Below, piece by piece: positions 3 through 62,445 of a stretch of DNA of 64,000 bases (positions within the stretch are counted from its first letter, which is position 1; each line of letters starts with the position of its first letter). The notes under the pieces are model-generated. The model had not been told where the DNA came from. It searched no databases and worked only from the letters and a program-made list of their open reading frames with translations. Both the position numbers and the translations under genes were made by a program. Source of the DNA: Rhizophagus irregularis (taxonomy: Eukaryota; Glomeromycota; Glomeromycetes; Glomerales; Glomeraceae); contig NC_089442.1 in assembly GCF_026210795.1 (NCBI RefSeq), positions 1,054,001-1,118,000 of the forward strand, in the 5' to 3' direction.

Positions 3-1541
3 ATACCAATTTTATTTATTCCTTTTAATCAAAACGATGATAAATGTAATAATTGTGGAAATAAATATTCCGAGACACTTTTATTTAAACAAAAATATTG
101 TAGAGAATGTTTATTACGTTATATTACGGATATAACTGATAATTTTACATACTTAGATATACACATAAGTACTATAAATTCTAAATGTAATGAACATGAA
201 ACGATCAGAAATGAAGAATTTTATACAAGAAGTATTAAAAAATGGTGCAAAAATTGCTCAATAATTTCATATTTCAAACAAATACCAACAAATTCTTTGG
301 CATATTATGATGATGATTTTAATTTTGAAAGACAAAATATGATAATTGAAAGTGAAAAAGATTGTAAATTTTGTGGAAAATTAATTTACAAAACCTCTTT
401 ATTATACGAAAAACTTAAAATATGTTCAGATTGTTATCCAATTTCTTATGAATTTATAATGTCTTCAACAACCGAGGAAACCATTCCAATCTTTTATTTA
501 CCATGGTGGGATACATTTTACGTATGTGTAAGATGTAAAGCAAAACTTTTATCTGGGGGTGCGAATCAAAAGTGGTGTTCATATTGCTTTATAATTTATT
601 GTGGATGCAGATATTGTTTAACGACCAATATCATTTTTGGGCTTACATGTCAAACTCATTGTAAAAAATGTAAAAGAGTAACTCCAATATTTATGGGCAA
701 TACAATTGTAAATATTGGAAGTAATGAAATAGACGATTTTGTTTATAAAAAAAGGAATATAGTTAATGATCTTAAAAACATATATATGAAGGATATAGAC
801 AATTATGATGATAATCCATTAAACGTTTATGACTTTTTTAAAGAAAAATTGTGTGTAAAGTCCGTTTCGGAAGCTATAATAGAATGGATACCGTATTCTC
901 GAATTACAAATTTAAAAGAAATTGCCAAAGGCGATTTTGGTATAATATATAAAGCAACTTGGTTAGATGGCGGAATAAGTGATGGTACAGGATACTCTAG
1001 AAAAAAAAATGAAATTGTTGCTATAAAAAGATTTATAGATAGTATAAATCATAAAAGGAATCTTTTAAATGAGGTAATTATACTTATTTAACGTCAAGTA
1101 ACGATACATAATTATTAAAATCTTTAATCAATTATTTAATTTTAGCTAAAATCATACTATCAATGTTACAATGAATACGGACATATTAATCGGTATTATG
1201 GTATTACAAAAGATCTTGAAACTAACGAATATATGTTAGTTATGAAATATATAAACATGGAAAATTTGCTTATTAGTATAACGCGGAAAGAAAAATTAGG
1301 TATGAAAAAGAGTTGGAAAAAATTATTGAATTTTATGGACGCGATGTTCGATACTTGGACCTGAATTTAATGAAAAACCTCATTAAAAAACAAAATATTA
1401 TTTATTTAAAGTCTTAATAATATAATTAACTTTTATCAATTTTATAGAAAATGTTTCAAAAGAATCTGAAGCCGATAAGATTAATGAAAAATCTCACTCA
1501 AAAGTAACTTACTCAATGAACTCATCTAATTTAAGAGAAGG
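3..1541 (+). pseudogene. Kinase gene, 5' cut by window edge, C-lobe deleted
   Basis: The open frame enters at position 3, upstream of any ATG, so the 5' end lies outside the window. The N-terminal part has CxxC pairs (CNNCG, CRECL, CKFCG, CSYCF) and a YLPWW motif, matching the intact gene at 30177-32581 along its length. A kinase N-lobe follows, with glycine loop AKGDFGIIYKA and lysine VAIKR. Exon 1 ends at 1073 (GAG|gtaatt); exon 2 starts at 1145 after TTTAG, gives YYGITKDLETNEYMLVM and stops at 1363. No HRD loop, DLG or APE segment follows. About ten codons of the family's C-terminal tail (GPEFNEKPH) appear in another frame directly at the stop, so the catalytic C-lobe was deleted. A tail exon at about 1446-1541 remains. 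It is a truncated gene or pseudogene. Confidence 0.8.
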
Positions 1542-9420: not shown

Positions 9421-10766
9421 TACTGTATATCCTGAGGTTTTTTTTATATCGGAACAACGTATCAAGAGCGATTTAGTAAAAATGAAACGATCAATTATTT
9501 AGCTAACCAAAAGAAGAATGCTCTTTAATTTTATTGAATAAAGAAAAAAATCAAATAATATTATGAGTCAACTCTTAATAATTTGATCAGGTGGTTTAGG
9601 AAAGAGGGAATTATCTGTATAGAATAGCGATCAACGCCATTCTTCTAGCGATACAAATAAAAGAAATTTTCTTTCCTATCTTTATTATATTGTTAGTCTG
9701 TACAATTAGCCAAGTGACGATCGCTGTGTAATATTTGGGATTTTATCTACTTATAATAAATAGTTACTGGATGATAGGAGGAATAGAGATATCGGTCGAA
9801 GACCCGTATCCCCGTCCAATAACTAAGTTATGTTAGGACTTTTACGTACTACCAAAGATTCGTCCTTGATTTGGACTAAATGCAGTTTTATATTAAATCA
9901 CAACGTGACAACGTAACACGATGATACAGGACCTTTTAACCCCTTAACTTTGTCATTGTGACCCCTTGCAGAAATTAACTCCGCAGCCAAATCGTAAACT
10001 TTAATAAATTATTGTTTATAAATATTACTTCATTGTTAATTGAAAAAAGTGATGACTGTACAGCAAAATCATGAATCAAATGACAAATAATTATATAATA
10101 AATAATAAAGTTCGAAGATAATAATACAATGAAATATATGAAATATTGGATGTTAACTCCGATTTACGTTTTTTTTGAAAGGCACGTGTAACAATTAAAT
10201 CGTTCATTATCTGGCCTGGCCCAAATTAAGTTAATACGGGTTTTACGTAATCTACACTGTACGCTGTACGCGTGTATATAGATATGCTGTATATACTGCT
10301 GTACTGGTAAAAAACAATAAATCAAAAAATGATAGAACATATAGAAAATCTTTTAAATAGTAGATACGGAAAACAAATATTTTATCAAGTATTTGGACTA
10401 TGTCCTGTTTGTAATCAACCAAAGACTAGTTATCATTGGTGTAAAATTTGTAATTCTATACGGTTTCAAAATGATTTTAATAAATGGACTAGTGGAAATG
10501 AAATTGTAGATAAATTTATTCAAAATGCTCAATCAAAAGCTAGAAATCGTCAAGAGGTTATAGAATGGATTCCGTATGAAAAATTAAGTGATATACAGTA
10601 CCTTGATAAAGGTGGTTTCAGTACCATCTTTAAGGCTATTTGGTTAGTTGGTGGGATCGAAAAATGGAATAATAAAATACAACAGTGGGAAAGATATGCT
10701 TTTACACGTGTTGTGTTAAAAAGTTTAAATAATTCCTCAAATGTCAATAAAGATTTTTTGAATGAG
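9380..10766 (+). repeat. Segmental duplication, copy A
   Basis: This block matches 13020-14680 in order. Shared landmarks are AATACAAGATTT, GAAACGATCAAT, AACCAAAAGAAGAATG, GATCAGGTGGTT, CCGATTT...GTTTTTTTTGAAAGG and kinase exon 1. The offset is about 3.85 kb. Copy A lacks the MITE present in copy B. Confidence 0.75.
10329..10766 (+). pseudogene. Kinase exon 1 only (zinc ribbon + N-lobe)
   Basis: The 146-codon exon starts at ATG 10329 and ends GAG|gtaaat at 10766, the same donor as its paralogs. It has a zinc ribbon (CPVC and CKIC, residues 25-41), the family motif WTSGNEIVDKFIQNAQ, then EWIPYEKL, a good glycine loop DKGGFSTIFKA and VVLKSL with the candidate Lys. Compared with the paralog at 14180 it lacks about 26 residues between AF and RVVLKS. 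No C-lobe follows: about 55 bp into the intron the sequence changes to an opposite-strand RING gene relic. The kinase cannot be catalytic as it stands; a stand-alone N-lobe protein is possible but unproven. Confidence 0.75.
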
Positions 10767-13060: not shown

Positions 13061-14680
13061 TACTGTAAAAATTCTGAAGTTGGTTTTACATTAAAACAAC
13101 GTGAATCAACCAGACTATAGGAAGTTGAATTGGAAAGTATTACTGTATGCTCATCGCTTCGTGTTTTTTTTATCCGTTTCTCTCTTTAAAGATGGATTTA
13201 TGATGAGCCGACAAGGTTACTTTTTTTATTATATCATCATTTAATAATAGATTATGAAACGATCAATCATTTAGATAACCAAAAGAAGAATGTGCTTAAA
13301 TTTTGTTGAATAAAGTAAATATTTTGATCAGGTGGTTAGGGGAAATGACATTTATTACGTAATATTTAGGGAGTAGGGTAAATAAAGGTTTTTTAAATAC
13401 ATAAGATTTTATATATGTTATGTGGGGATGAGGACTAATACTTATAACAAACGAATATTACGTAATAAATGTCACTGCCCTTAGGAAAAACGAAATAAAT
13501 TTTAGGTCATTTACGTTGATATATTAAGTTAGTATTAAGTCTGTACAATTAGCCAAGTACATATATACCTACTAGTTTATAACTGAATTATACCTAGATC
13601 TTTTATTCTTTTACGCCAAGACACCTTTAAGATTCAATTAATTAAATGTCTATTTTGAACTATAAAAATTGTGCTATCATTTTAATTTCTTTATTCGGAC
13701 TAAATGTAGTTTTTATTAAATCACTTTATTATGTCGATTGTTCCTTATATACGTTCCATGGAAGTCCCGTGCACATCGCACAATGAAACATACCCCTGAA
13801 CTTTATTATTGTGATAAATTAACCCCTTGCAAGACGTAACTCCGCAGCCAAACAATATTACGTAATCGTTAGTTTATGAAAGAAATTAATGATATTATAA
13901 TTTTAAAACAATTATTATTTACAGAATATTTACTTAAATATCCAAAAATTCATTGAAAGAATGATGACGGCGCACTAATCAAATGACAAAATAAGTTTAG
14001 TAATAAAACACAATGAAATATTTGATGTTAAATTCCGATTTGCGGTTTTTTTTGAAAGGGCACGTGTTAATCATGTTACGATTAAAAATCGGTCATTATC
14101 TTTACTAATATAAGTTTTACGTGTAATATATATATATATATATACATACAGTTATACGTAAAAAATTCAATAGATTAAAATGCCGGAAAATATTGAAAAT
14201 TTTTTAAATAGTAAATACGGACAACAAATATTTAATCAAGAATTTGGACGATGTCTTGATTGTGATCAATCAAAGACTAGTTCTGATTGGTGTAAAAATT
14301 GTAATACTAAACGATTTCAAAAAGATTTTAATAAATGGACTAGTGGAAATGAATTTGTAGATAAATTTATACAAAATGCTCAATCAAGAGCTAGAAATCG
14401 TCAAGAAGTTATAGAGTGGATTTCATATGAACAATTAATAGATATAAAGTACCTTGCTCAAGGTGGGTTCAGTACCATTTTTAAGGCTATTTGGTTAGTT
14501 GGTGGGATCGAAAAATGGGATAATAAAAATCAACAGTGGGAAAGATACGCTTTTCCACTTGAATATGATTATAAGAGCAATATTAAACCATCTCTCAATG
14601 AAAAAGAAAAAGCCGGAAGACGCGTCGTGTTAAAAAGTTTAAACAATTCCTCAAATATCGAGAAAGATTTTTTAAATGAG
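13020..14680 (+). repeat. Segmental duplication, copy B
   Basis: Partner of 9380-10766. It is longer because of a MITE at 13339-13480 and other small insertions. It ends in the second kinase paralog. Confidence 0.75.
13339..13480. mobile_element. PIF/Harbinger-like MITE (142 bp)
   Basis: Terminal repeats contain a perfect 21-bp match (TGACATTTATTACGTAATAT plus T at 13346-13366, inverted at 13454-13474). Outer ends are GGGG and CCC, flanked by TTA on both sides (13336-13338 and 13481-13483). A TTA duplication with GGG ends is the Tourist pattern. Copy A of the duplication has the empty site (GTGGTTTAGGAAA). Confidence 0.8.
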
Positions 14681-14783
14681 GTAAATGATAACATAATGAT
14701 AATATTTATTATATAAAAGATTAATAATTAAAATGTTCATCTTTTTTTTTCATCGTTAAATTGGTATTTTAGTGGGAAAATTA

Positions 14784-15036
14784 TTTATTGCACTTTTCAA
14801 AATTGTGCTACCCCCTGCAGGTCATCTAATAAAAAAGATTATGAGATTATGATTATAGGACGATTACTGGACAAAAACTGGACAATTTTGTCCGGTAATC
14901 GTCCTGTAATCGTCCTATAATCGTCCTATAATCATAATCACTCAGTAATTGTCCAGTAATCGTCCAGTTATTGTCCTGTAATCATAATCATCAAGTAATT
15001 ATAACGTATACAGAATTCTGAAAACTGCGATAAATT
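14784..15036. mobile_element. MITE inside kinase exon 2
   Basis: Ends read TTATTGCACTTTTCAAAATT and, inverted, TTATCGCAGTTTTCAGAATT. The inside is made of inverted and tandem copies of a 12-bp word (TAATCGTCCTGT and variants). The kinase frame matches on both sides (WENYL before, MYSARN after), which marks it as an insertion. A related fragment (AGCACAATTCTGAAAAGCGC) lies at about 55190-55215. Confidence 0.65.
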
Positions 15037-15200
15037 TTATGTATTCGGCTCGAAATGATAATTCGGATTCTATTAGAATATTTGGAATAACCCAAGATCC
15101 AAAGACATTAAATTATATGGTTGTAATGAATTATATGGAACTTGGTAGTTTAAGGTCAAATTTAATGATAAAAAAGTATAATCCGGGTGATAAATATAGA

Positions 15201-15403
15201 AATCCCCTGTCGCACTAAGTGTCACTCATGATCACCTTCATACTAATTTTTAAAAATTGCGAGTGATTAGTTGAGTTTATAAATGACCGGGAATCTTCGT
15301 TTAGTTATTTCCCGGTCTCATATAGATAGCCGGAAAATTACTAATTTTAGTTTAAAATAGTTAAAATAGTTGATATTTAATGAGTGACACGCTCCAGGGG
15401 ATT
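15201..15403. mobile_element. Second MITE inside kinase exon 2
   Basis: Inverted ends are AATCCCCTG...GTGTCACTCAT at the left and ATGAGTGACAC...CAGGGGATT at the right. Kinase codons stop at DKYRNP and resume just after it at PFISWEGK. No clear target duplication could be set. Confidence 0.65.
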
Positions 15404-15407
15404 ACCC

Positions 15408-15492
15408 ATTTATTTCCTGGGAAGGAAAACAATAGGGCTTTTTTCCCTTCGGGAAAAAAACCCTATTATTTCCAACTCCCCATGAAATAAAT
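15408..15492. repeat. Foldback containing inverted kinase codons
   Basis: An 85-bp inverted repeat with a GGGAA/TTCCC loop region. The left arm is the kinase codons for FISWEGK followed by CAATAGGG; the right arm is a diverged reverse copy (CCCTATTATTTCC...GAAATAAAT). It adds sequence between WEGK and the next conserved codons. Confidence 0.65.
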
Positions 15493-16251
15493 AATACAAA
15501 TTTTTATGATATAACTAAATCACTATCAGCTTTACATGAATGTAATTTAGTTCATGGTGATTTTCATAGTGGTAATTTACTTTTGTTAACCCATGCTATT
15601 GCTTATATAAGTGACTTGGGATTAAGTCGACCAGCAGATAAACCTAATAAATCAAATGAAATTTATGGAATACTTCCTTATATTGCACCCGAAGTATTAC
15701 GTGGTAAACCATATACTAAAGCTTCTGATATATATTCTTTCGGTATTATAATGTGGGAAATGATATCTGGTGTTCCTGCATTTAATGATGTACCTCATGA
15801 TTTTAATCTTTCCTTAGCTATTTGCAAAGGATTAAGACCAAGAGTTATTGATGACACAGAACCTGAATATGTAGAATTAATGAAAAGATGTTGGGATTCT
15901 GACCCTAGTAAAAGGCCGACAGCCAAAGAGTTGTTTGAATATTTTAGGAATTGGCGGAAAACGTATAAATTTAATAATAATAGAGTACCTGTACCAGGTA
16001 AAATATGCGCGTTTGAATGATGTGTTTTATTATTTTAACGCAATTTATTAATAAATAATGGCCTTTTTTTTTTGTAGAAAATAAACTTTCCGTTATAAAC
16101 TATTCAAGAACTTTATATACAAGCAGAAAAATCAATTATTCTGCGAAGTTAAATGAAATCTTGAGTCAAGAATTAAGTTCAAGAATTATAATGTATAGTT
16201 ATAATGATGATTATAGCGATGAAAATAATTCCGATAATTATGAAGATCTAG

Positions 16252-30176: not shown

Positions 30177-32581
30177 CTTTCAGTATCTATATCAAGCTCT
30201 AAATCTGCTGAGATATAATTAGAATCAAAAGAGGCTGAACAAGTTTGAATCTTGGAACTTAAATTTTGTGACGACAAACTAAACAAATAAATTGAAAGAT
30301 TCAAAATAATAATTAGTTATGTCATTAAAAAAACAAAAATTTTTTGTTTAAATACCTTTTAGTAACTGTATTAAGTGAGATATAATTAGAATCTAAAGTA
30401 TATAACAATAATCTTATGAATTATAGGATATTATTTAAATTATAATTATCTTTATTTTTAGTAATACCTTGTTTATTGTCATATGAAATTGTCGAGGATG
30501 AATTGGTAGATGAACATTTAGAAATTAAATCACTTAATGGTCTACTTGTATAAATTGCTTCTGAGTGATATTTTTCAGCAAATTCAGGTCCAATCTTTTT
30601 TAATTCTATCAGTTTCTTCCGTTTTGATTCAGCTTGATCAAATTCTACCTTATTTTTACCTCTAAAAGCCCAACTACCAAAAGTTAAACGAATATCTTTT
30701 ATAGAAGGTCTTTTTTTTGGATCATGATCCCAACAACTTTTCATTAAATTAGCATAACATTCTGGTGTGTCTTCTGTAATTTCAGGTCGTTCTCCATCAA
30801 GAATTTTATAAACAAGACTATGATCATGTTTAACATTAGCAAAAGGTTTACAACCTGTTGTAAGTTCCCACATAATCATACCCAAACTATAAATATCAGC
30901 TTTTTTAGAAAATGCGGCCCCTTTAAATATTTCTGGTGCAATATAAGGTATAACTCCATAGATTTCATTATTTGATGATTTATTATTTACAGGATGTGAT
31001 AATCCTAGATCCGCAATTTTCCATTGATATCTTACTTTAGTTTTTTTTTGGTCATTTTGGTCATTAAATAAATCAAATAATATATTTCCGCTATGGAAAT
31101 CTCTATGTATAAATTTATTTTTATGGATGTGTTCAAGTCTAAATTAAAAAAAATTAATAATTTTAAATTTGTGGATATAATGAATACGTTTAAAATATAA
31201 TTACCCTTCTGAAATTTGCCATAATATACGTAATTTTTGGTTATTCCATGTAATATTTTTAAAGCTCTTTTGTAAGTATTTATGTAAATCTCCTTCTGAC
31301 GCATATTTTATAACCAATATATAATCTTCTGATTCAGGATCTCTTGTAAAACCATAAATTTTGATTATGTGACTATAAAGTGATTTATCAATACAATGTC
31401 GATATGATTTTAACTATAAAATTTAAAGATTTTAATTAACGATTAATTTTTGACAAAAAATTATTCAATAAATATATTAAAATATTTACCTCATTCAAGA
31501 AATAATTACTACTATTTTTGGAATTTTCAAATCTTTTTAAAATGACAGTTTCATTATTACTTAACCAAGTTGCTTTATGTATAACACCATAACCTCCTTT
31601 TGTCATTTCTTTTACATCTTTAAATTGAGAATACGGCGTCCAATTAATTGGTTTTGCGCTATTTCGTGTTCTAAAAATAGAATTTAATATAGACCTTAAT
31701 ATATCCCATGGTTCATAATATTTATTAATATTTTTTACAATATTTATAGTGTCGGCTAACTCAAAGATATCGTGTAAAACATTATTAAAAAGAAAATCAT
31801 CAATATCGCTGTGTTCAATATTATTTATGATAAGTGATATTCTTTTACATTTTTTACATTTAGATTCAAGTATAGATCCAAAAATAATGTTTGTTGTTAA
31901 ACAATATCTGCATCCAACATAAAATATACAACAATTTGTACAATAACTTTGACAGTCTGATGTAAATGTTAACTTTGAATGACATGAGTTACAATAAATA
32001 TAATTATGCCACCATGGTAAGTAAAGAATCAAAGTTCGCTTTTTAACCAAAGTTGATTCTATCCATTCAGAAGAAATTAGATAACAATCTAGACATAATC
32101 TAAAATAATTGCCTTCTTTAAATGGACATTTAAATGACTTTCCACATAATTTACAATAATTTTCACTTTCAACCACCTTATCACATATGTTTTTATCAAG
32201 GTCACATATATTTCTACCAATAATACCCCCAACCATTTGTTTAAAACATAAAATTCTCACACAATTTCCACAGCATTCTTGAATATTTCGTGGTACAATT
32301 GTTCTACTTATTTCATGATTACTACATTCCAAGTCCATTGTGTAAATATATACGTCCAAGTATGTATTATTATTATCAGTTATATCATTAATATAACGCG
32401 ATAAACATTTTTTGCAATATTTTTGGTAAGAACAAAGAAATGTCCCAGTATATTCTTCTCCACAATTAAAACACTTACTATCACTTGCATTAAAAGGAAG
32501 AAATTTAATTGGTATAGGACTAGATTTTAATCTTGGCGTCGGGTCAAATGAATTTTCATCATTTGTATTCACCAATTCCAT
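30177..32581 (-). CDS. Intact tyrosine-kinase-like protein with Cys-rich N-terminus
   Basis: Exons 31490-32581, 31205-31413 and 30421-31138 (1092, 209, 718 nt) join in frame to 672 aa from ATG 32581. Residues about 35-270 are Cys-rich, with CxxC pairs (CFNCG, CKKCL, CKLCG, CNSCH, CTNCC) and LPWWHNYIYC. The kinase domain follows: KGGYGVIHKA, VILKR (Lys), KNKFIHRDFHSGNILF, IADLGLSHP (DLG for DFG), IPYIAPEIFKG, and CWDHDPKKRPS. All catalytic residues are present. After the tail motif EAIYTSRPL, an alternative donor at 30468 leads in frame to exons 30356-30392 and 30177-30278, which repeat the words DSNYIS and SSQNLS. The substrate is unknown. It is the best-preserved relative of the broken gene at position 3. 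Confidence 0.9.
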
Positions 32582-42208: not shown

Positions 42209-44499
42209 TTAAAATCCATCTAAAGTTAAAAAATAGCAATTATAAATTAATTATTTGGTTTAAAAAGAAATCTTATTTATTTAAGAACTTACCATCAGAA
42301 ATTTCCAGTTCATCTTGTTCTTTTGAATGAAGACTTGGATTATTATATACTTCGTCATCATCTTCTATAAGGAGAAAAAAATAATAAAATTAAAATAGTA
42401 CAAAAATTGTTTGTTATTACATAAAATTTCCACCTACCATTGACATGTTGTTGAGTTATTTCTCTTTCATCATCTAAATTTTAAATAAAAGTCACGTTAA
42501 ATAATAAATTGGAAAAAATAATGATTTTATTTGTTAGTAATTTACTTACCATTTGAATTTATTTGTAACTTTATAAATTCTTCGGGTAATTTTTCACTAT
42601 CACCTAAAATTAAGATATAGATTTAATATATATATAAATCAATCTCGTTTTGACAATACTTAAAATATATTACCTCTAAAAATGGTAATTACTTTTGATG
42701 ATTTGCTACTATTCTGCTCATTTGATTTATTCAAGTCGTTAACTAAAATAAAAATTAATTATTAAACATCATTATGTAATAATTCAACGCTGTAATGTTA
42801 ATAATTACTTACTATTGTTAGGAATGTTAAAATCATACAATTTACTATGAAACCCTATTAGTAGTAAAATAAAGTATTTTAAAAACTAAATTATTATAGC
42901 CACCAAAAAATGGTAGAAATTATTATTTATACGGCTATACCTTCTTGTTGTTCTATTATAATATAAATTCAAAAAAGATATTATTAATGTATTTTAAAAT
43001 AAATACATTCATTAATAAAATATTATGATCTTATACCTTCTGTTGCATTTCTTGGTTCAGGTAGATTTGCAAAGTTGTGAATTTTACTTGTAAATAATCT
43101 GCTACTTGTATAATTTTCTTCTACTTTATTCATTTCTAAATTATCCATTTCTGATTTGAATAATTCATCTGACATATTTTGATAATGTAAGTTAATATTG
43201 TTTATTTTGTTCCAAAGTGTAAGTATATTAGGTCTTTTTAATGGATCAGCATCCCAACATTCTTTCATTAAATTTTTATATTCTAATGGAGTTCCTGGCA
43301 CAATTTTTGGTCTTATACCGTTAATAATATTCATTACAATATCATTTTCATGTTCATAATTTATAAATGGTGTTTGTCCAGATGAAATTTCCCACATAAG
43401 AATTGCAATACTATAAATATCTGATGCAAAAGTATATTCTCTTCCAACAATAACTTCGGGTGCTATGTAAGGAAGATTTCCATATATACTTGTTGAAGAT
43501 TTATCAGCAGGTCCACAAAATCCAAGATCACTAATATACCAGTAATCATTTGTTTGTGAATATAATATATTCCCAGAATGTAAATCTCTATGATTTGCTT
43601 TCTCTTTATGAATATAATAAAGTGCAACAATTATTTCATAAATAATATTAATTCTCTTTTTCCATGTAAGTTGATTATGATTTTGTTGTAAATATTTTCT
43701 TAAATCTATATCAAATTTCTCCATTACAAGCATATAATTTCCATTTGATGGATTTTGCGTTAAACCAAAACATTGAACAACAACAGCACATTTATTACTT
43801 ATAGTTAAATGTGATTTAGCCTAAAAGGCAATAATTTGTAAAAATTCTCATATTAATACAAAGCCTGCATAATTTTATACAATAAATTTAGAATTTAATT
43901 ATACAAACCTCTTCAAACCAACTTTGATTTGCACTTTCAACATTTTCTAATTTTTTAAGCACTATATTATGATTTCTGAGTCTCGTTAATTGTTTTTTTT
44001 CGGAATCCCATTCATCACATGGTCCGTCAATCCAATATGCTGTATAAATTTCTGAGAATCCACCTTTTGTTAAATATTTAATATTTTCTAAATTACTATA
44101 TGGGATCCATTCAACTACCTTATTTGGCATAAGTGATTCCATTTGACATTTCTGTATTAAATTATCAATATCATCATTCCCGGATGTCCAATTTGGAAAA
44201 TTTTCTTTTAAATAATTTCGAATACAATATTCACAATATAATGTGGCTAAACATTCTTGGTTACAATTTTCACAAATTCTTTTTGTACCATCATTTTCCA
44301 TAACTTTATTTCGATCATAATTTTTAGTTAAAAATCTTATTGCATAAGTTTTTTCATCATTTGTAAGAATTTTATCAGTAAGGACTATTTGTCGTTGGTA
44401 TTCAAATTGTTTGTGTATATTATTGTAAATATTAGTATCTGTTAATGTTGCTATTCTATTAATTGTTGCACCAATTAATTTATATCGAAGAGTGGACAT
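42209..44499 (-). CDS. Intact tyrosine-kinase-like protein with modular tail exons
   Basis: The start is ATG 44499 (MSTLRYKLIGATINRIATLTD); no in-frame ATG exists further up. Exon 1 (43909-44499) has a zinc ribbon (CENCNQEC, CEYC), NWTSGNDDIDNLIQ, EWIPY, glycine loop TKGGFSEIYTA and VLKKL. Exon 2 (43037-43820) has HRDLHSGN, ISDLGFCGPAD, LPYIAPEVIVG, CWDADPLKRPN and YTSSRLF. Seven short exons follow: 42941-42952, 42813-42854, 42674-42742, 42550-42603, 42438-42473, 42293-42364 and terminal 42209-42219 (12, 42, 69, 54, 36, 72, 11 nt). All join in phase 1 and give 556 aa. The tail is acidic and Asn/Gln-rich. The kinase residues are complete. The tail-exon model is by eye, but the consistent phase is strong support. 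Confidence 0.85.
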
Positions 44500-55498: not shown

Positions 55499-58400
55499 AT
55501 GTCATCTCAAGACAATTTTGTATGTAAATATTGTGGTAAATTATATATAATGAGATGGATTAAATGGTGCAAACAATGCCAAATAGATAATTTAAGAAAT
55601 AATTTTAAAAACTGGACCAGTGGAAACGAAAAAATTGATGAATTAATTCAAGAAATGCAATTAAAAATTAATCATTTTGGAGATATAATATTTGAATGGA
55701 TACCATATAATCAATTTGAAGACATCAAAGAAATAGGTAGAGATGATTCCACTGCACTATATTCAGCAATATGGATTGATGGCCCATTACAATATGATGA
55801 TGATGATAAAGAATGGACAAGGGAATCTAGTGTAGGAGTTTCTTTAAAGTGTTTATATAACTCACAAAATATCACCAATGAATTTTTAAACGAGGTATGA
55901 AAATATAAATTCTTTGTAATTTAATTTTTAAAGTAGTACTTTTATTAAAATTACTTTTCATTATATAAAATGTGTAGGTTAATTCACATCCTATTAATTA
56001 TAATAATATAAGCAATGATAATATTCCTAAAATATGTGGAATAACCCAAAATCCAGAAACAAAAGATTATATTCTGGTATTTAGATGTTGTTATTGTGAA
56101 TACTGTGGCAAAATATATACAAATTTAAGATATAACATTTGTATATGTTATATGAAAAATGATTGTATCAGTGGAAATGAAAAAATTGATAAACTCATCC
56201 AAGAAATGCAATTAGAAAATATTGGTAAATATGCTGCATTTTTTGAATGGATACCTTATATCCAGTTTAATAGTATTAAACAAATAGGCAAAGATGATTC
56301 TACTACATTATTATATTCAGCAATATGGATGGATGGGCCATTAGAATATATATATGAAGAAAAGTCATGGGTAAGTGTGCCTAATAAGGAAGTTGTTTTA
56401 AAGTGTTTATATAATTCACAAGATATTATCAATGAATTTTTAAATGAGGTATGAAATTCTAATTTTTTTTTGTAATTCAATAATTTATTTAATTTTTAAA
56501 ATATTTGTTTACTATAATAATTAAATAATATATGTTTTAACAGCATAAATTACATGATGAATATGATTTATTAGATGATATTCCAATAATATATGGAATA
56601 ACTCAAAATCCAGATACAAATGATTATATTATGGTACTTCAAGATGGTTATTGCAAATACTGTGGCAAAATATATACAATTGAAAAAAATAAATGGTGTA
56701 CAACATGTCAAATAAATAATTTAAAACAAAATTTTATAAGCTGGACCAGTGGAAATGAAAAAATTGATGAACTTATTCAAGAAATGCAATTGAAAATTAA
56801 TGATACTAATGATGTAATAGTTGAATGGATACCTTATAACCAGTTTATTGAAATTAAAGAATTGAATAAGAATAGTTCTGGTACATTATATTCAGCAATA
56901 TGGATGGATGGTCCATTAAAATATGATACTTCTAAAATAATGTGGGAAAGAGTGCCTAATAAAGAAGTTGTTTTGAAATGTCATTCACAAAATATTATCA
57001 ATAAATTTTTAAATGAGGTATAAAATTTTAATTTTGTGTAACTTAATTTGAGTGCTTACAATATATAACATTTTATATATTTATGTTTTAACAGATTAAA
57101 TCATATACTTTTTGTAATTATTTTAATGATGGAATATATGGAATATCCCAAGATCCAGTTATAAAAGATTATATTATAGTGTTATATATAGATAATTATT
57201 GTAAAACCTGTGGTGAGATATATATAGTAGGTAGGAGAAGATGGTGCATGTTATGTCAAGTAAATATTTTAAAAGAAAATTTTGCAAGGTGGACTAGTGG
57301 AAATGAAAAAATTGATAATTTTATTCAAGAAATGCAATTAAAAATTAATAAGTTTAATAATACAATAGTTGAATGGATACCATATAACCAGTTTAATTAT
57401 ATTAAAGAAATAGGAAAAGGTGGGTTTGCTACAGTATATTCAGCAATATGGATGGATGGTCCATTAAGATATGACTATAATAAAAAGGAATATAAAAGAA
57501 AGCCTAATGAAGAAGTTGCTTTAAAACGTCTAAATAATTCACAAAATATTACTGATGAATTTTTAAGTGAGGTATGAATTTTTCCTTAAATTAACTAATC
57601 TTTTACAATATAATAACTTTATTTTTACTAGGTTAAAAATTACTCTATTAACCATAATGAACATATTCTTCAAATATATGGAATATCACAAAATCCAAAT
57701 ACAAAAGACTATATTATAGTTCTTCAGTATGCAAATGGTGGAAATTTTGATAATTATATTAATGATATTATAAATTGGTTTTGGTTTGAAAAATTGATAG
57801 CATTAAAAAATATTATTAAAGGGCTAAAAAAAATTCATGGAAATAAAATGGTTCATCGTGATTTTCATACTGGAAATATATTAACATCATTTGATCTTGA
57901 CTCTTGTTATGAACTTTCTTGCAATACTGCAAGTGATATATATATTTCAGATATGGGTTTATGTGGAGAAATTAGTAATATAGGTCAAACAAAAATTTAT
58001 GGAGTTATGCCTTTTGTAGCACCTGAAGTATTAAAAAGAAAACCTTATACTCAAGCAGCAGATATATATAGTTTTGGTATGATTATGTATTTTGTAGCAA
58101 CTACAAAACAACCTTTTGCCAATTGTGCTCATGACAATATATTAGCATTAAATATATGCAATGGAATTAGACCTGAAATAAATGAAAAGGAAGCTCCAAA
58201 ATGTTATATTGATTTAATGAAAAAGTGTTGGGATTCAAATCCGGATAATAGGCCAAATGCTATTGAAGTAAGTGAATTGATTGAATTATTTTGTAAATCT
58301 TGCAATGCATCAGAAGATATGATAGAAGATGAGAAAATTGGGAAACAATTTGAAGAAGCAGAAGAATATAGAAAAGCAAATCTTTTATCAGTTAAAAATA

Positions 58401-58513
58401 GCAAATTAACTACTCAACATCCACAAGCTTATTATACTTCTCGATTGCTCAATCCATTTACAAAAGATCTTTCAAATGATACTGATTGTTTAGACTGTAT
58501 GATTGATGATTGA
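55499..58513 (+). CDS. Kinase with four tandem zinc-ribbon/N-lobe modules and one C-lobe (899 aa)
   Basis: Five exons, 55499-55894, 55978-56448, 56544-57017, 57095-57571 and 57632-58513 (396, 471, 474, 477, 882 nt), all joined in phase 0. Exons 1-4 each end in a zinc ribbon plus N-lobe (CKYCGK...; SGNEKID; EWIPY; glycine loop; LKC/LKR; FLNE or FLSE); exons 2-5 each start with the next N-lobe strands (GITQNP...DYIxV), so the ribbon of the next module sits where a C-lobe should begin. Modules 1-3 have poor loops (GRDDSTALYSA, GKDDSTTLLYSA, NKNSSGTLYSA). Module 4 is good: GKGGFATVYSA (about 554), VALKR (Lys about 591). Exon 5 has HRDFHTGN (about 681-688), SDMG (713), VAPEV, CWDSNPDNRPN and YYTSRLL. 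The module 2 ribbon is altered (CEYC, CICYMKNDC). There are no stops, so it looks functional. Splicing by eye. Confidence 0.85.
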
Positions 58514-60219: not shown

Positions 60220-60371
60220 AAAAAAAAAACTCTTTCCCCTTTCCGTTTTTTTATTAAAATTCTGCAGTATCCTATTTTTCTCACGAATAAAATAAAAAAA
60301 AAATTTTTTCCAAGAGGAGAGGACCACGAGGTGGCCTCTACGGAAAGGCTTCCTCTCACTTTAACTGTTCT

Positions 60372-60977
60372 TTGAAAGAGCTAGAGATGGAAAATAGTAC
60401 TATCTCTATAGAACATATGCCTCTAGAGGCTATTTCTTTTCTTTCTTTACAAAATACTTTTCGAAAACCCACTTCTCATTATGAATATAGTCTCCTTATT
60501 TCGGTGGAAAAATTTCATGTGAATATTAATAATCGTACCGATTATAATAAGATTTACGAAATAAGACGCTCAAAAAGTTACTTTTTTGAGCTGGCCGATC
60601 AATTTTCAGGCACCAATGATATTCATCTTATCATACACACAAATGATTACCACATGCAGACTAAACCGATTCGGTATACTTCATCGAGTCCATTTCCCAA
60701 CAAGAAATACCAAATTAGTAAAATGCTCACGCACTTCTTTTCCTTACAACGAGTGATTCCACGTAGAATACAACAAAGATATTTTAACCTTATCCGCCGC
60801 AAACTATTGGATCAGTTTGATATTATCCGATCACGTGCAGGCAATACTCTTTTACCTGACAATGAAGATCACCCTCACCCCGGAAGTCAACATAACAAAT
60901 CTTCCAAAACTTTCTTCAATTTCTTGTACAAGAGATATCATTTTCACTTCGCTGTTATACCCCTTGCCAACATTTAA
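60372..60977 (+). CDS. Element ORF A, unknown function
   Basis: From about 60387 (MENSTISIEHMPLEAISF) to TAA 60975-60977. It reads EYSLLISVEKFHVNINNRTD, RSKSYFFELADQF and RRIQQRYFNLIRRKLLDQFD; basic, His-rich toward the end. The stop overlaps the ATG of the next frame in the string TAATG. No family recognised. The frame shift to ORF B may instead be a mutation. Confidence 0.55.
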   Translation: MKELEMENSTISIEHMPLEAISFLSLQNTFRKPTSHYEYSLLISVEKFHVNINNRTDYNKIYEIRRSKSYFFELADQFSGTNDIHLIIHTNDYHMQTKPIRYTSSSPFPNKKYQISKMLTHFFSLQRVIPRRIQQRYFNLIRRKLLDQFDIIRSRAGNTLLPDNEDHPHPGSQHNKSSKTFFNFLYKRYHFHFAVIPLANI

Positions 60978-61579
60978 TGACTCTAAAAAAGTCCAAAGAT
61001 ATATCTTTTTGCCGTGTACCTAGTCCTTTCGTCATGACTAATGATCGTCATGCTTGTGTCGATCATCAGAAAGAGTTTTTTCGTAATCGACTCTTCCATT
61101 CTACAAGACATTATGTTTTACGAGATCAAGTCCCGCCTAACTCCAAAACCTCCCATGCTCAACTACTCTACAATAGATGGAAAGAAGGCACCGGAAAACA
61201 AATCTTTTCGCGACGCCTCGGCATTGAATACTCTATGAATTACCTGGCTGGAAGTAATAAAAACATCATCCGCCTACATCACCGTCACATGTATATGAAA
61301 CGGTTTTCTAACTTCAGATTCATTCCCTTTCCTAATCCAAAGACTAAAAAGGATCAACAAAAGCGTTTCAAACGAAATTGCAATAGAGTTTTTAATACCC
61401 GTTACGATTCAGCATGTACTAGTTTCGAAGCGAAACTTAAAGCTGCTTGGAAAAATCATTTTATTTTTCACAAATCTCAAACTGTTCACAAGACCCTTTC
61501 ACATCTCACTTATTCACGGAAATCGGTAATCCCGATGCTAATGTTTACAAGTTTAACATCCCATTTTACGAACCCCTAG
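60977..61579 (+). CDS. Element ORF B, unknown function
   Basis: Starts at the ATG overlapping the ORF A stop (60977-60979). It is very basic: RHYVLRDQVPPNSKTSHAQL, FSRRLGIEYSMNYLAGSNKN, RHMYMKRFSNFRFIPFPN, KKDQQKRFKRNCNRVFNTRY. The last about 40 codons lose protein character where the overlapping frame 61447-61953 gains it, so a frameshift lies near 61500. It might bind nucleic acid; that is inferred from charge only. Confidence 0.5.
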   Translation: MTLKKSKDISFCRVPSPFVMTNDRHACVDHQKEFFRNRLFHSTRHYVLRDQVPPNSKTSHAQLLYNRWKEGTGKQIFSRRLGIEYSMNYLAGSNKNIIRLHHRHMYMKRFSNFRFIPFPNPKTKKDQQKRFKRNCNRVFNTRYDSACTSFEAKLKAAWKNHFIFHKSQTVHKTLSHLTYSRKSVIPMLMFTSLTSHFTNP

Positions 61580-62445
61580 GTGTACCTCCAGTCTCTCAAG
61601 AAGACCTCTCATTAGATGAACCTAAACTCAGGTTCTCTGGTATATTCAAAGTTGATCTACCCTCTAACGCACCCCGACTTAATTTAAATTCATCAGGAAT
61701 CCAGATGAATAATTTTAATTTCAACCAATTGACAGACGCTTCGGCGTCTAACGACATTATTACTTTCTCTCCACATCCTGCACACACCATGGTCGCCACA
61801 GTGGAAAATTACGACCCACATCAAAGGAACGTGTGCGATCCACTTAAACCTTTCGTCCCTAGATCTCCCATCTATGATGAATACGGACATTACTTACCAC
61901 CCGATTCTGTTGGATGGTTAAGTGTTGTCGAGAATTCCTTCATACTAAGATGACAACCCGACCTAGTGGCCGAGGTACAGGAATTACAATCAGATAGGCG
62001 TACTAAATTGAAGCCTAAAGAATTTCAATGTCGGCTAGATAAGGCCAAACGTAAATCAACCCTACACATTTATCATGGCACTAGTGCCAAACACCTTCAA
62101 CGTCGTCTAGATACTACGACCCACCTTACCACCGTACAAACTACCTATCACCGGTACATGAACTATGCGACCGGCACTTGTTCAGACCGCCTTTACGAGC
62201 GTGAACGACAACGTTACCAGTCTTATCTGGATTCTCTCCCTAAAAAATATATGCTCCCACACCTCGAGGACATCGCCTATAATGACACCTCTGACGATAC
62301 TAAACGCCTCGAAGTTCGTCTTAAGAAACGGGACACTCTTAATAACCTCTGCGATCGTTATCTTCACAGAGACCAAATTAAACGTATACGACTGGATACA
62401 GATTACCCTATTGACTCCCCTGTTTCTAGTTCAAACAAATCTTAG
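61447..62445 (+). pseudogene. Element ORF C, one in-frame stop
   Basis: One frame from 61447 to TAG 62443-62445, with a single TGA at 61951-61953. Before it: HLFTEIGNPDANVYKFNIPF, YEPLGVPPVSQEDLSLDEPK, FVPRSPIYDEYGHYLPPDS. After it: LVAEVQELQSDRRTKLKPKE, RERQRYQSYLDSLPKKYML and RYLHRDQIKRIRLDTDYP. It is probably the C-terminal half of the protein begun in ORF B. The stop marks this copy as dead, unless it is read through. Confidence 0.5.

Follow-up and report, generated by a model that had tools for sequence, protein, structure and literature searches.

Arrays of protein kinase N-lobes ahead of a single C-lobe in a large gene class of the fungus Rhizophagus irregularis

INTRODUCTION

A kinase is usually pictured as a complete domain of two lobes, and a pseudokinase as a complete but dead copy of one. 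In JAK and GCN2, a whole pseudokinase domain and a kinase are found in one chain, with a regulatory effect, and plant tandem kinase-pseudokinase proteins contain two or more whole kinase domains. In Roco4, RIPK1, B-Raf, MLT, and TAK1, each kinase domain has a single N-lobe, and none of them is known to carry a zinc-ribbon array. The genome of R. irregularis has been described, in the passages that deal with its kinases, as carrying expanded Ser/Thr/Tyr (TKL-like) kinases and high-copy signaling genes, with 2,533 kinase genes (PMC8647823, PMC10234402). Among open-licence papers in PMC, we found no description of arrays of N-lobes. Here, we analyze one such array, located in a window of 64,000 bases (contig C14, positions 1054001 to 1118000), together with its relatives in the 146.75-Mb genome (32 contigs).

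RESULTS

A gene with four N-lobes and one C-lobe

The gene is found at positions 55499 to 58513 of the window (+ strand). Its five exons, each of a length divisible by 3, join into a translation of 899 amino acids with one terminal stop and are separated by four phase-0 GT..AG introns of 83, 95, 77, and 60 bases (55895 to 55977, 56449 to 56543, 57018 to 57094, and 57572 to 57631, + strand), all four with in-frame stops. The five phase-0 exons and the single 899-residue frame of the original prediction were confirmed, with correct exon coordinates, as was its architecture of four zinc-ribbon/N-lobe units ahead of a single C-lobe.

The exon unit runs from beta4-beta5 of the previous N-lobe through a zinc ribbon and a helix (WTSGNEKID..IQEMQ) to EWIPY.., beta1, the glycine loop, beta2, the beta3 Lys, and the FLNE of alphaC, where the strand names were assigned by analogy with kinase domains and not from a structure. 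Exons 2 to 4 open with beta4-beta5 of the preceding N-lobe and close with beta1-beta3/alphaC of the next one and, since this unit is out of register with the fold, each N-lobe straddles an intron and is split at alphaC. All on the + strand, exon 1 (55499 to 55894, 132 amino acids) begins with the ATG, has no beta4-beta5, and encodes a zinc ribbon, the WTSGN helix, and beta1-beta3 plus the start of alphaC of pseudo-N-lobe 1 (loop GRDDST, beta3 Lys present); exon 2 (55978 to 56448, 157 amino acids) contains beta4-beta5 of N-lobe 1, a degenerate zinc ribbon, the helix, and beta1-beta3 of pseudo-N-lobe 2 (loop GKDDST); and exon 3 (56544 to 57017, 158 amino acids) contains beta4-beta5 of N-lobe 2, a zinc ribbon, the helix, and beta1-beta3 of pseudo-N-lobe 3 (loop NKNSSG). 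Exon 4 (57095 to 57571, 159 amino acids) follows the same plan, with beta4-beta5 of N-lobe 3, zinc ribbon, helix, and beta1-beta3 of N-lobe 4, in which the loop GKGGFATVYSA is intact and accompanied by VALK. Exon 5 (57632 to 58513, 293 amino acids plus the stop) carries beta4-beta5 of N-lobe 4, the only C-lobe (HRDFHTGN, SDMG, and APEV), and a C-terminal tail. At the DNA level, copies spaced about 550 bases apart were found across the array, far beyond chance, with direct repeats of up to 300 nucleotides.

In full, the glycine loops of units 1 to 3 read GRDDSTALYSA, GKDDSTTLLYSA, and NKNSSGTLYSA, against GKGGFATVYSA in unit 4, while the beta3 motifs of units 1 to 4 are VSLK, VVLK, VVLK, and VALK, with the Lys in all four. 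Only the last N-lobe had been thought to keep both the loop and VALK; the loop is indeed lost in units 1 to 3, but the Lys is not. Loss of VALK as a mark of dead units was rejected, given that the beta3 Lys is mostly retained in upstream units (163/179 in the first set described below).

Among single exons, only exon 5 gave a Pfam kinase match above the cut-off (PF00069, 3e-29; PF07714, 9e-29), with exon 4 alone remaining below it (PF07714, 15.7 bits, cut-off of 23.1). Among spliced units, only unit 4 was above the cut-off (PF07714, 32.9 bits, E value of 5e-8). No Pfam kinase was recognized in units 1 to 3, even when spliced, and these were therefore placed by their identity to other units, which within this gene is 52 to 63% (five pairs shown). 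AlphaFold, run on exons 3 and 4 singly with a four-row alignment, gave poor models (pLDDT of 38.6 and 55.8), and Foldseek with the poor exon 4 model found no match at an E value of 0.001 or less.

The array gene class in the genome

To collect related loci, exon 3 was compared with the genome, and the best 150 of 4,703 candidates fell into 65 clusters, 37 of them with at least two matches. The first set covers 36 multi-match clusters plus the window's own, the 28 single-match clusters being left out. As it was selected by likeness to a pseudo-N-lobe, control sets were taken from C-lobe and general kinase matches: a random set of 18, drawn with 3 kb of upstream sequence from the 120 C-lobe matches outside the fetched loci (among 150 listed), and a general set of 5, roughly every 29th row of 147 general kinase matches, counted by hand. 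Profiles for the unit (A), beta4-beta5 (B), and the C-lobe (C) were run on the loci.

A and B alternate in all 37 first-set loci, and C ends 33 of the fetched pieces and lies just beyond the piece in three more. Split matches having been merged, there are 3 to 9 units per locus, and some arrays may be longer, as eight pieces start less than 700 bases from the first match. Each N-lobe meets the next zinc ribbon where the hinge would be expected, with a profile gap of 2 to 5 residues at 176 of the 182 junctions. Long gaps are found inside L001 and L024, the latter of which, from its sequence, may be two genes. Locus L006 has seven units that resemble those of L003, followed past the last beta4-beta5 matches by unrelated sequence with no recognized C-lobe exon, and is a decayed or rearranged copy.

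At least two N-lobes were present in 16 of the 18 random-set loci, with one N-lobe in L041 and none recognized in L046, and the general set yielded two arrays (L060 and L062) and three single-N-lobe genes. Altogether, 55 array loci were read (37 by similarity to exon 3, 16/18 random, and 2/5 general), all with the A-B-A-B...-C plan, so that a one-off or a local assembly artifact was rejected. The window gene is therefore one of a large gene class, which goes beyond what the original prediction saw. The splice signals are alike across the units, nearly all of which have an AG acceptor and a phase-0 donor, in most cases GAG|GTATGA. All four zinc cysteines were found in 171/179 upstream units of the first set. 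However, 6 of the 16 random-set arrays (L040, L045, L047, L049, L050, and L051) include units without a ribbon, in which the WTSGN helix directly follows beta4-beta5, indicating that the zinc ribbon is not essential to the design.

Among the matches listed in the genome search, two units, at C14:947001 and C14:829419, had 83% identity to exon 3, and 15 of the 37 multi-match clusters, the window's included, were located within about 1 Mb of the window's contig (C14:254886-1201206). A scan of viral contigs for relatives found none.

The glycine loop is kept by position

The first set gave 226 unit matches, 213 of them near complete and aligned and 13 dropped. GxG was found in every last unit (34/34) but in 1/179 upstream units, and GxGxF in 34/34 and 0/179, respectively. 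These counts treat the sixth unit of L036 as last, since its C-lobe follows; without this reassignment, the GxG values are 33/33 and 2/180 (Fisher P of 1e-36). The same pattern appeared in the random set, with 16/16 last units, including one from the single-N-lobe gene L041, and 3/69 upstream units (P of 1e-14, 85 matches long enough to score), and with the beta3 Lys in 55/69 upstream units. The upstream exception in the first set is unit 4 of L036, which has a nearly intact loop (GKGGITTVYLA). Among the 13 dropped matches are unit 1 of L012, an upstream unit with GNGDF, the last unit of L019 with GKGGF, and the last unit of L032, whose match was split at the loop.

Dead upstream loops of the first set frequently contain Asp or Glu (134/179). 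We do not claim this preference as an evolved phosphate-repelling trait, because Gly to Asp/Glu is a single transition in an AT-rich genome. In the tree of units, last units do not form one clade (the best split holds 20/33 of them plus 5 others), and loop state changed 14 times under equal-cost parsimony, against about 33 with shuffled labels. With units this short, these figures give no more than a rough idea of how often the loop was lost independently.

The terminal kinase

Every catalytic residue is present in the terminal unit of the window gene (GKGGFATVYSA, VALK, FLSE, HRDFHTGN, and SDMG). The class as a whole is similar in this respect, with GxG accompanied by the beta3 Lys in all 34 last units of the first set and, in the C-lobes, the DFG Asp in 33/33 and 18/18, the catalytic Asp in 31/33 and 17/18 (first and random set, respectively), and the Asn in 33/33 (first set), the HRD Arg being less frequent (26/33 and 13/18). 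The terminal unit has the residues of an active eukaryotic protein kinase and is predicted to be active. When it was compared with the PDB, Roco4, RIPK1, B-Raf, MLT, and TAK1 accounted for most of the best 60 rows (E values of about 1e-18 to 1e-15), although the top row belonged to EGFR, with IGF1R high in the list as well. The window gene most likely belongs among the expanded TKL-like kinases of R. irregularis.

Arrays and single-N-lobe genes outside the window's group

In the single-N-lobe genes of the general set (L058, L059, and L061), the loop is GGFG with Ala-Glu or Ala-Lys in front of it, and strict GxG is therefore inapplicable to them. Four related units elsewhere in the window have GGFS (three) or GDFG (one). 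In L062, the upstream units read EDDFG, EDEFG, a deletion, and EDDLG, and the last one KGGFG; in L060, the two scored upstream units have EGKFG (unit 2, AEGKFG, nearly intact) and a deletion, and the last one GKGGF. Upstream units of these two arrays share 55 to 61% identity with the last unit of their array, and none of the first-set upstream units exceeds 49% identity to them. In a tree with seven first-set arrays, L060 and L062 grouped with L059 and L061 (support of 0.89). On two loci and a small tree, this fits a putative second origin of arrays with a like loss of the loop.

The window itself contains other related kinase pieces, at 843 to 1241 (+), 10398 to 10766 (+), 14249 to 15945 (+), 43200 to 44277 (-), and 30688 to 31377 (-), of which those at 14249 to 15945 and 43200 to 44277 resemble zinc-ribbon kinases that have one N-lobe and a GGF loop. 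Downstream from the array gene, a run of overlapping open reading frames of 163 to 228 amino acids (60291 to 62442, +) had no Pfam match at an E value of 0.01 or less. Outside the array gene, Pfam matched none of five open frames of the 64-kb window.

Frame integrity and selection

In 16/37 first-set loci, automatic modeling gave a frame that stays open over the full array, from the ATG to the stop codon; the other 21 models failed, nine being incomplete, four having the C-lobe outside or absent, and eight presenting stop, frame, or start problems. Broken units were few among both upstream (5/185, one of them, in L024, a gap and not a frameshift) and last units (2/36), and the C-lobe is split in L028 and L029. 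Adjacent upstream units are up to 99% identical, indicating that duplication has been recent in places.

We estimated dN/dS (omega) by codon maximum likelihood, which replaced noisy NG86 estimates. For the upstream units, three pairs of older arrays gave low values (L008-L009, 0.23, 2dlnL of 79.1; L011-L025, 0.25, 74.7; L012-L035, 0.23, 78.0). The two closest paralogs of the window gene are L017 and L020, which resemble it over about 90 bases upstream of the ATG. Here, upstream omega was 0.84 against L017 (2dlnL of 0.4) and 0.63 against L020 (3.1), neither significantly below 1, and 0.48 between the two paralogs (8.3). Values for L016-L021 and L021-L030 were 1.06 (0.0) and 0.57 (5.1). C-lobes gave 0.13 to 0.43 and last units 0.19 to 0.39, except for a value of 2.07 in L017-L020 that was not significant. 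The proposal that the array is maintained is backed by many paralogous arrays, in which frames are open and splice sites kept, but weakly by the upstream dN/dS of the gene itself; purifying selection is seen for upstream units of the older arrays (0.23 to 0.25), whereas modules 1 to 3 of the window gene (0.63 to 0.84) do not clearly escape neutrality.

Indels were multiples of 3 in 97/97 cases in upstream exons, 21/84 in introns, 14/16 in last exons, and 24/32 in C-lobe exons, rough counts from nine non-independent pairs that partly follow from how the loci were picked, as those compared are the ones with open models; the counts of broken units above do not depend on that choice. Divergence between paralogs was alike in upstream and last units for the zinc ribbon (0.31 and 0.29), the helix (0.17 and 0.19), and beta1 (0.15 and 0.17) and was looser upstream for the glycine loop (0.34 versus 0.11), beta3 (0.23 versus 0.06), and alphaC (0.21 versus 0.05).

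Exon 4 of the window gene (57095 to 57571) differs from those of L017 and L020 by 3 to 4%, compared to 9 to 14% for the other exons, which may reflect strong constraint or gene conversion. In young paralogs (the group of window 55499 to 57017 and L016/L021), upstream exons diverged more than introns, e.g., 0.107 versus 0.049 in L017-L020. Diversifying selection or a slow intron clock could produce this, and positive selection is not claimed for either group, because short AT-rich introns are a poor clock.

DISCUSSION

We favor, with a probability of about 0.5, the reading that the gene encodes an active TKL-like kinase whose non-catalytic pseudo-N-lobe repeats would act as a multivalent regulatory or scaffold arm. 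The five exons would be joined in one mRNA and translated into one protein, in which N-lobe 4 and the C-lobe would make up the sole catalytic unit, that of one TKL-like kinase, and the upstream units would fold as pseudo-N-lobes without normal ATP binding. What upstream units retain is the WTSGN helix and the EWIPY strand, in most cases along with the beta3 Lys; those of the window's group have the zinc ribbon too. Since the helix and beta1 are best kept and the Lys is mostly present, we infer that they are folded, non-catalytic docking repeats. The face formed by the helix and beta1, to which the zinc ribbon would add in units that have one, might then serve as a repeated docking surface, either for partners that it would recruit or for the terminal kinase itself, which would be held and released. 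As candidate pseudokinases, the upstream units lack both the loop and a C-lobe; they nevertheless mostly keep the Lys and are half domains only. The original prediction had suggested decoys, scaffolds, or regulatory pseudo-N-lobes, and the non-catalytic part of that suggestion is strengthened by the genome-wide rule of loop position. Arrays probably grew by tandem duplication of the fused exon (beta4-beta5 joined to the zinc ribbon); as this exon is in phase 0 at both ends, the reading frame survives however many copies there are.

The main competing explanation, particularly for the window gene, is that the arrays are a neutral by-product in which the phase-0 fused exon duplicates by unequal crossing-over and extra N-lobes that keep the frame are tolerated without doing anything specific, selected at most against misfolding. 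The decay of upstream loops, the variable number of units (3 to 9), the recent duplications (up to 99% identity between neighbors), and the upstream omega of 0.48 to 0.84 in the window group and 1.06 in L016-L021 would all be expected from it. We consider it unlikely, given the omega of 0.23 to 0.25 (2dlnL of 75 to 79) in three older pairs, the small number of broken upstream units (just 5/185), and the equal conservation of helix and beta1 in upstream and last units.

The exon phases would allow any combination of units, and donor and acceptor signals are alike among them, as in a cassette system where splicing skips phase 0-0 unit exons and chooses the N-lobe for the C-lobe, giving active (unit 4) or dead (units 1 to 3) isoforms. 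However, several catalytic N-lobes would predict that more loops are kept than the 1/179 and 3/69 found upstream, and phase-0 symmetry is expected from tandem duplication anyway; such a system seems improbable to us. Breaks in a few arrays and the C-lobe exon missing at the expected place in L006 could suggest that the array is not one gene and that its modules are separate transcripts or remnants, the working gene being exons 4 and 5 or a similar 3' part. This we find very hard to reconcile with internal exons that follow a splice acceptor and open with the beta4 part, exon-1-type starts at the 5' end only, introns of just 60 to 95 bases, and 16/37 loci open from ATG to stop in the automatic model.

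Beyond the active kinase with a regulatory or scaffold arm that we favor for the window gene, a wider and more tentative idea, which we put at somewhat under even odds, is that a half-kinase modular binding repeat, made of the helix and an N-lobe that lacks the ATP loop and usually accompanied by a zinc ribbon, has been placed several times before one working kinase in many genes, with more than one origin (the window group and L060/L062), as an expandable recognition repertoire. If true, half a kinase domain would be a new class of repeat protein in an arbuscular mycorrhizal fungus. The multiplication of a single lobe, with the ATP loop lost by position in dozens of genes, is a natural experiment on what a non-catalytic N-lobe needs. 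Moreover, some of this plant symbiont's very large kinome may be of a type hidden from Pfam-based annotation, as units 1 to 3 are not recognized by Pfam.

Compared with known systems, JAK and GCN2 are similar in having a non-catalytic kinase-like part beside an active kinase, and they differ in that this part is a whole pseudokinase domain and in having no zinc-ribbon repeats. Roco4, RIPK1, B-Raf, MLT, and TAK1 are sequence relatives of the terminal kinase. The expanded kinases of R. irregularis belong to the same superfamily as the window gene, and the passages that describe them treat them as kinase-domain genes and leave N-lobe arrays unmentioned (PMC8647823, PMC10234402). Plant tandem kinase-pseudokinase proteins, e.g., wheat Yr15 (PMC6170490), likewise have kinase-fold copies fused to an active kinase. 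However, tandem proteins of this kind are defined by at least two whole bilobal domains, whereas the class described here has one C-lobe per array and repeats the N-lobe alone, 3 to 9 times.
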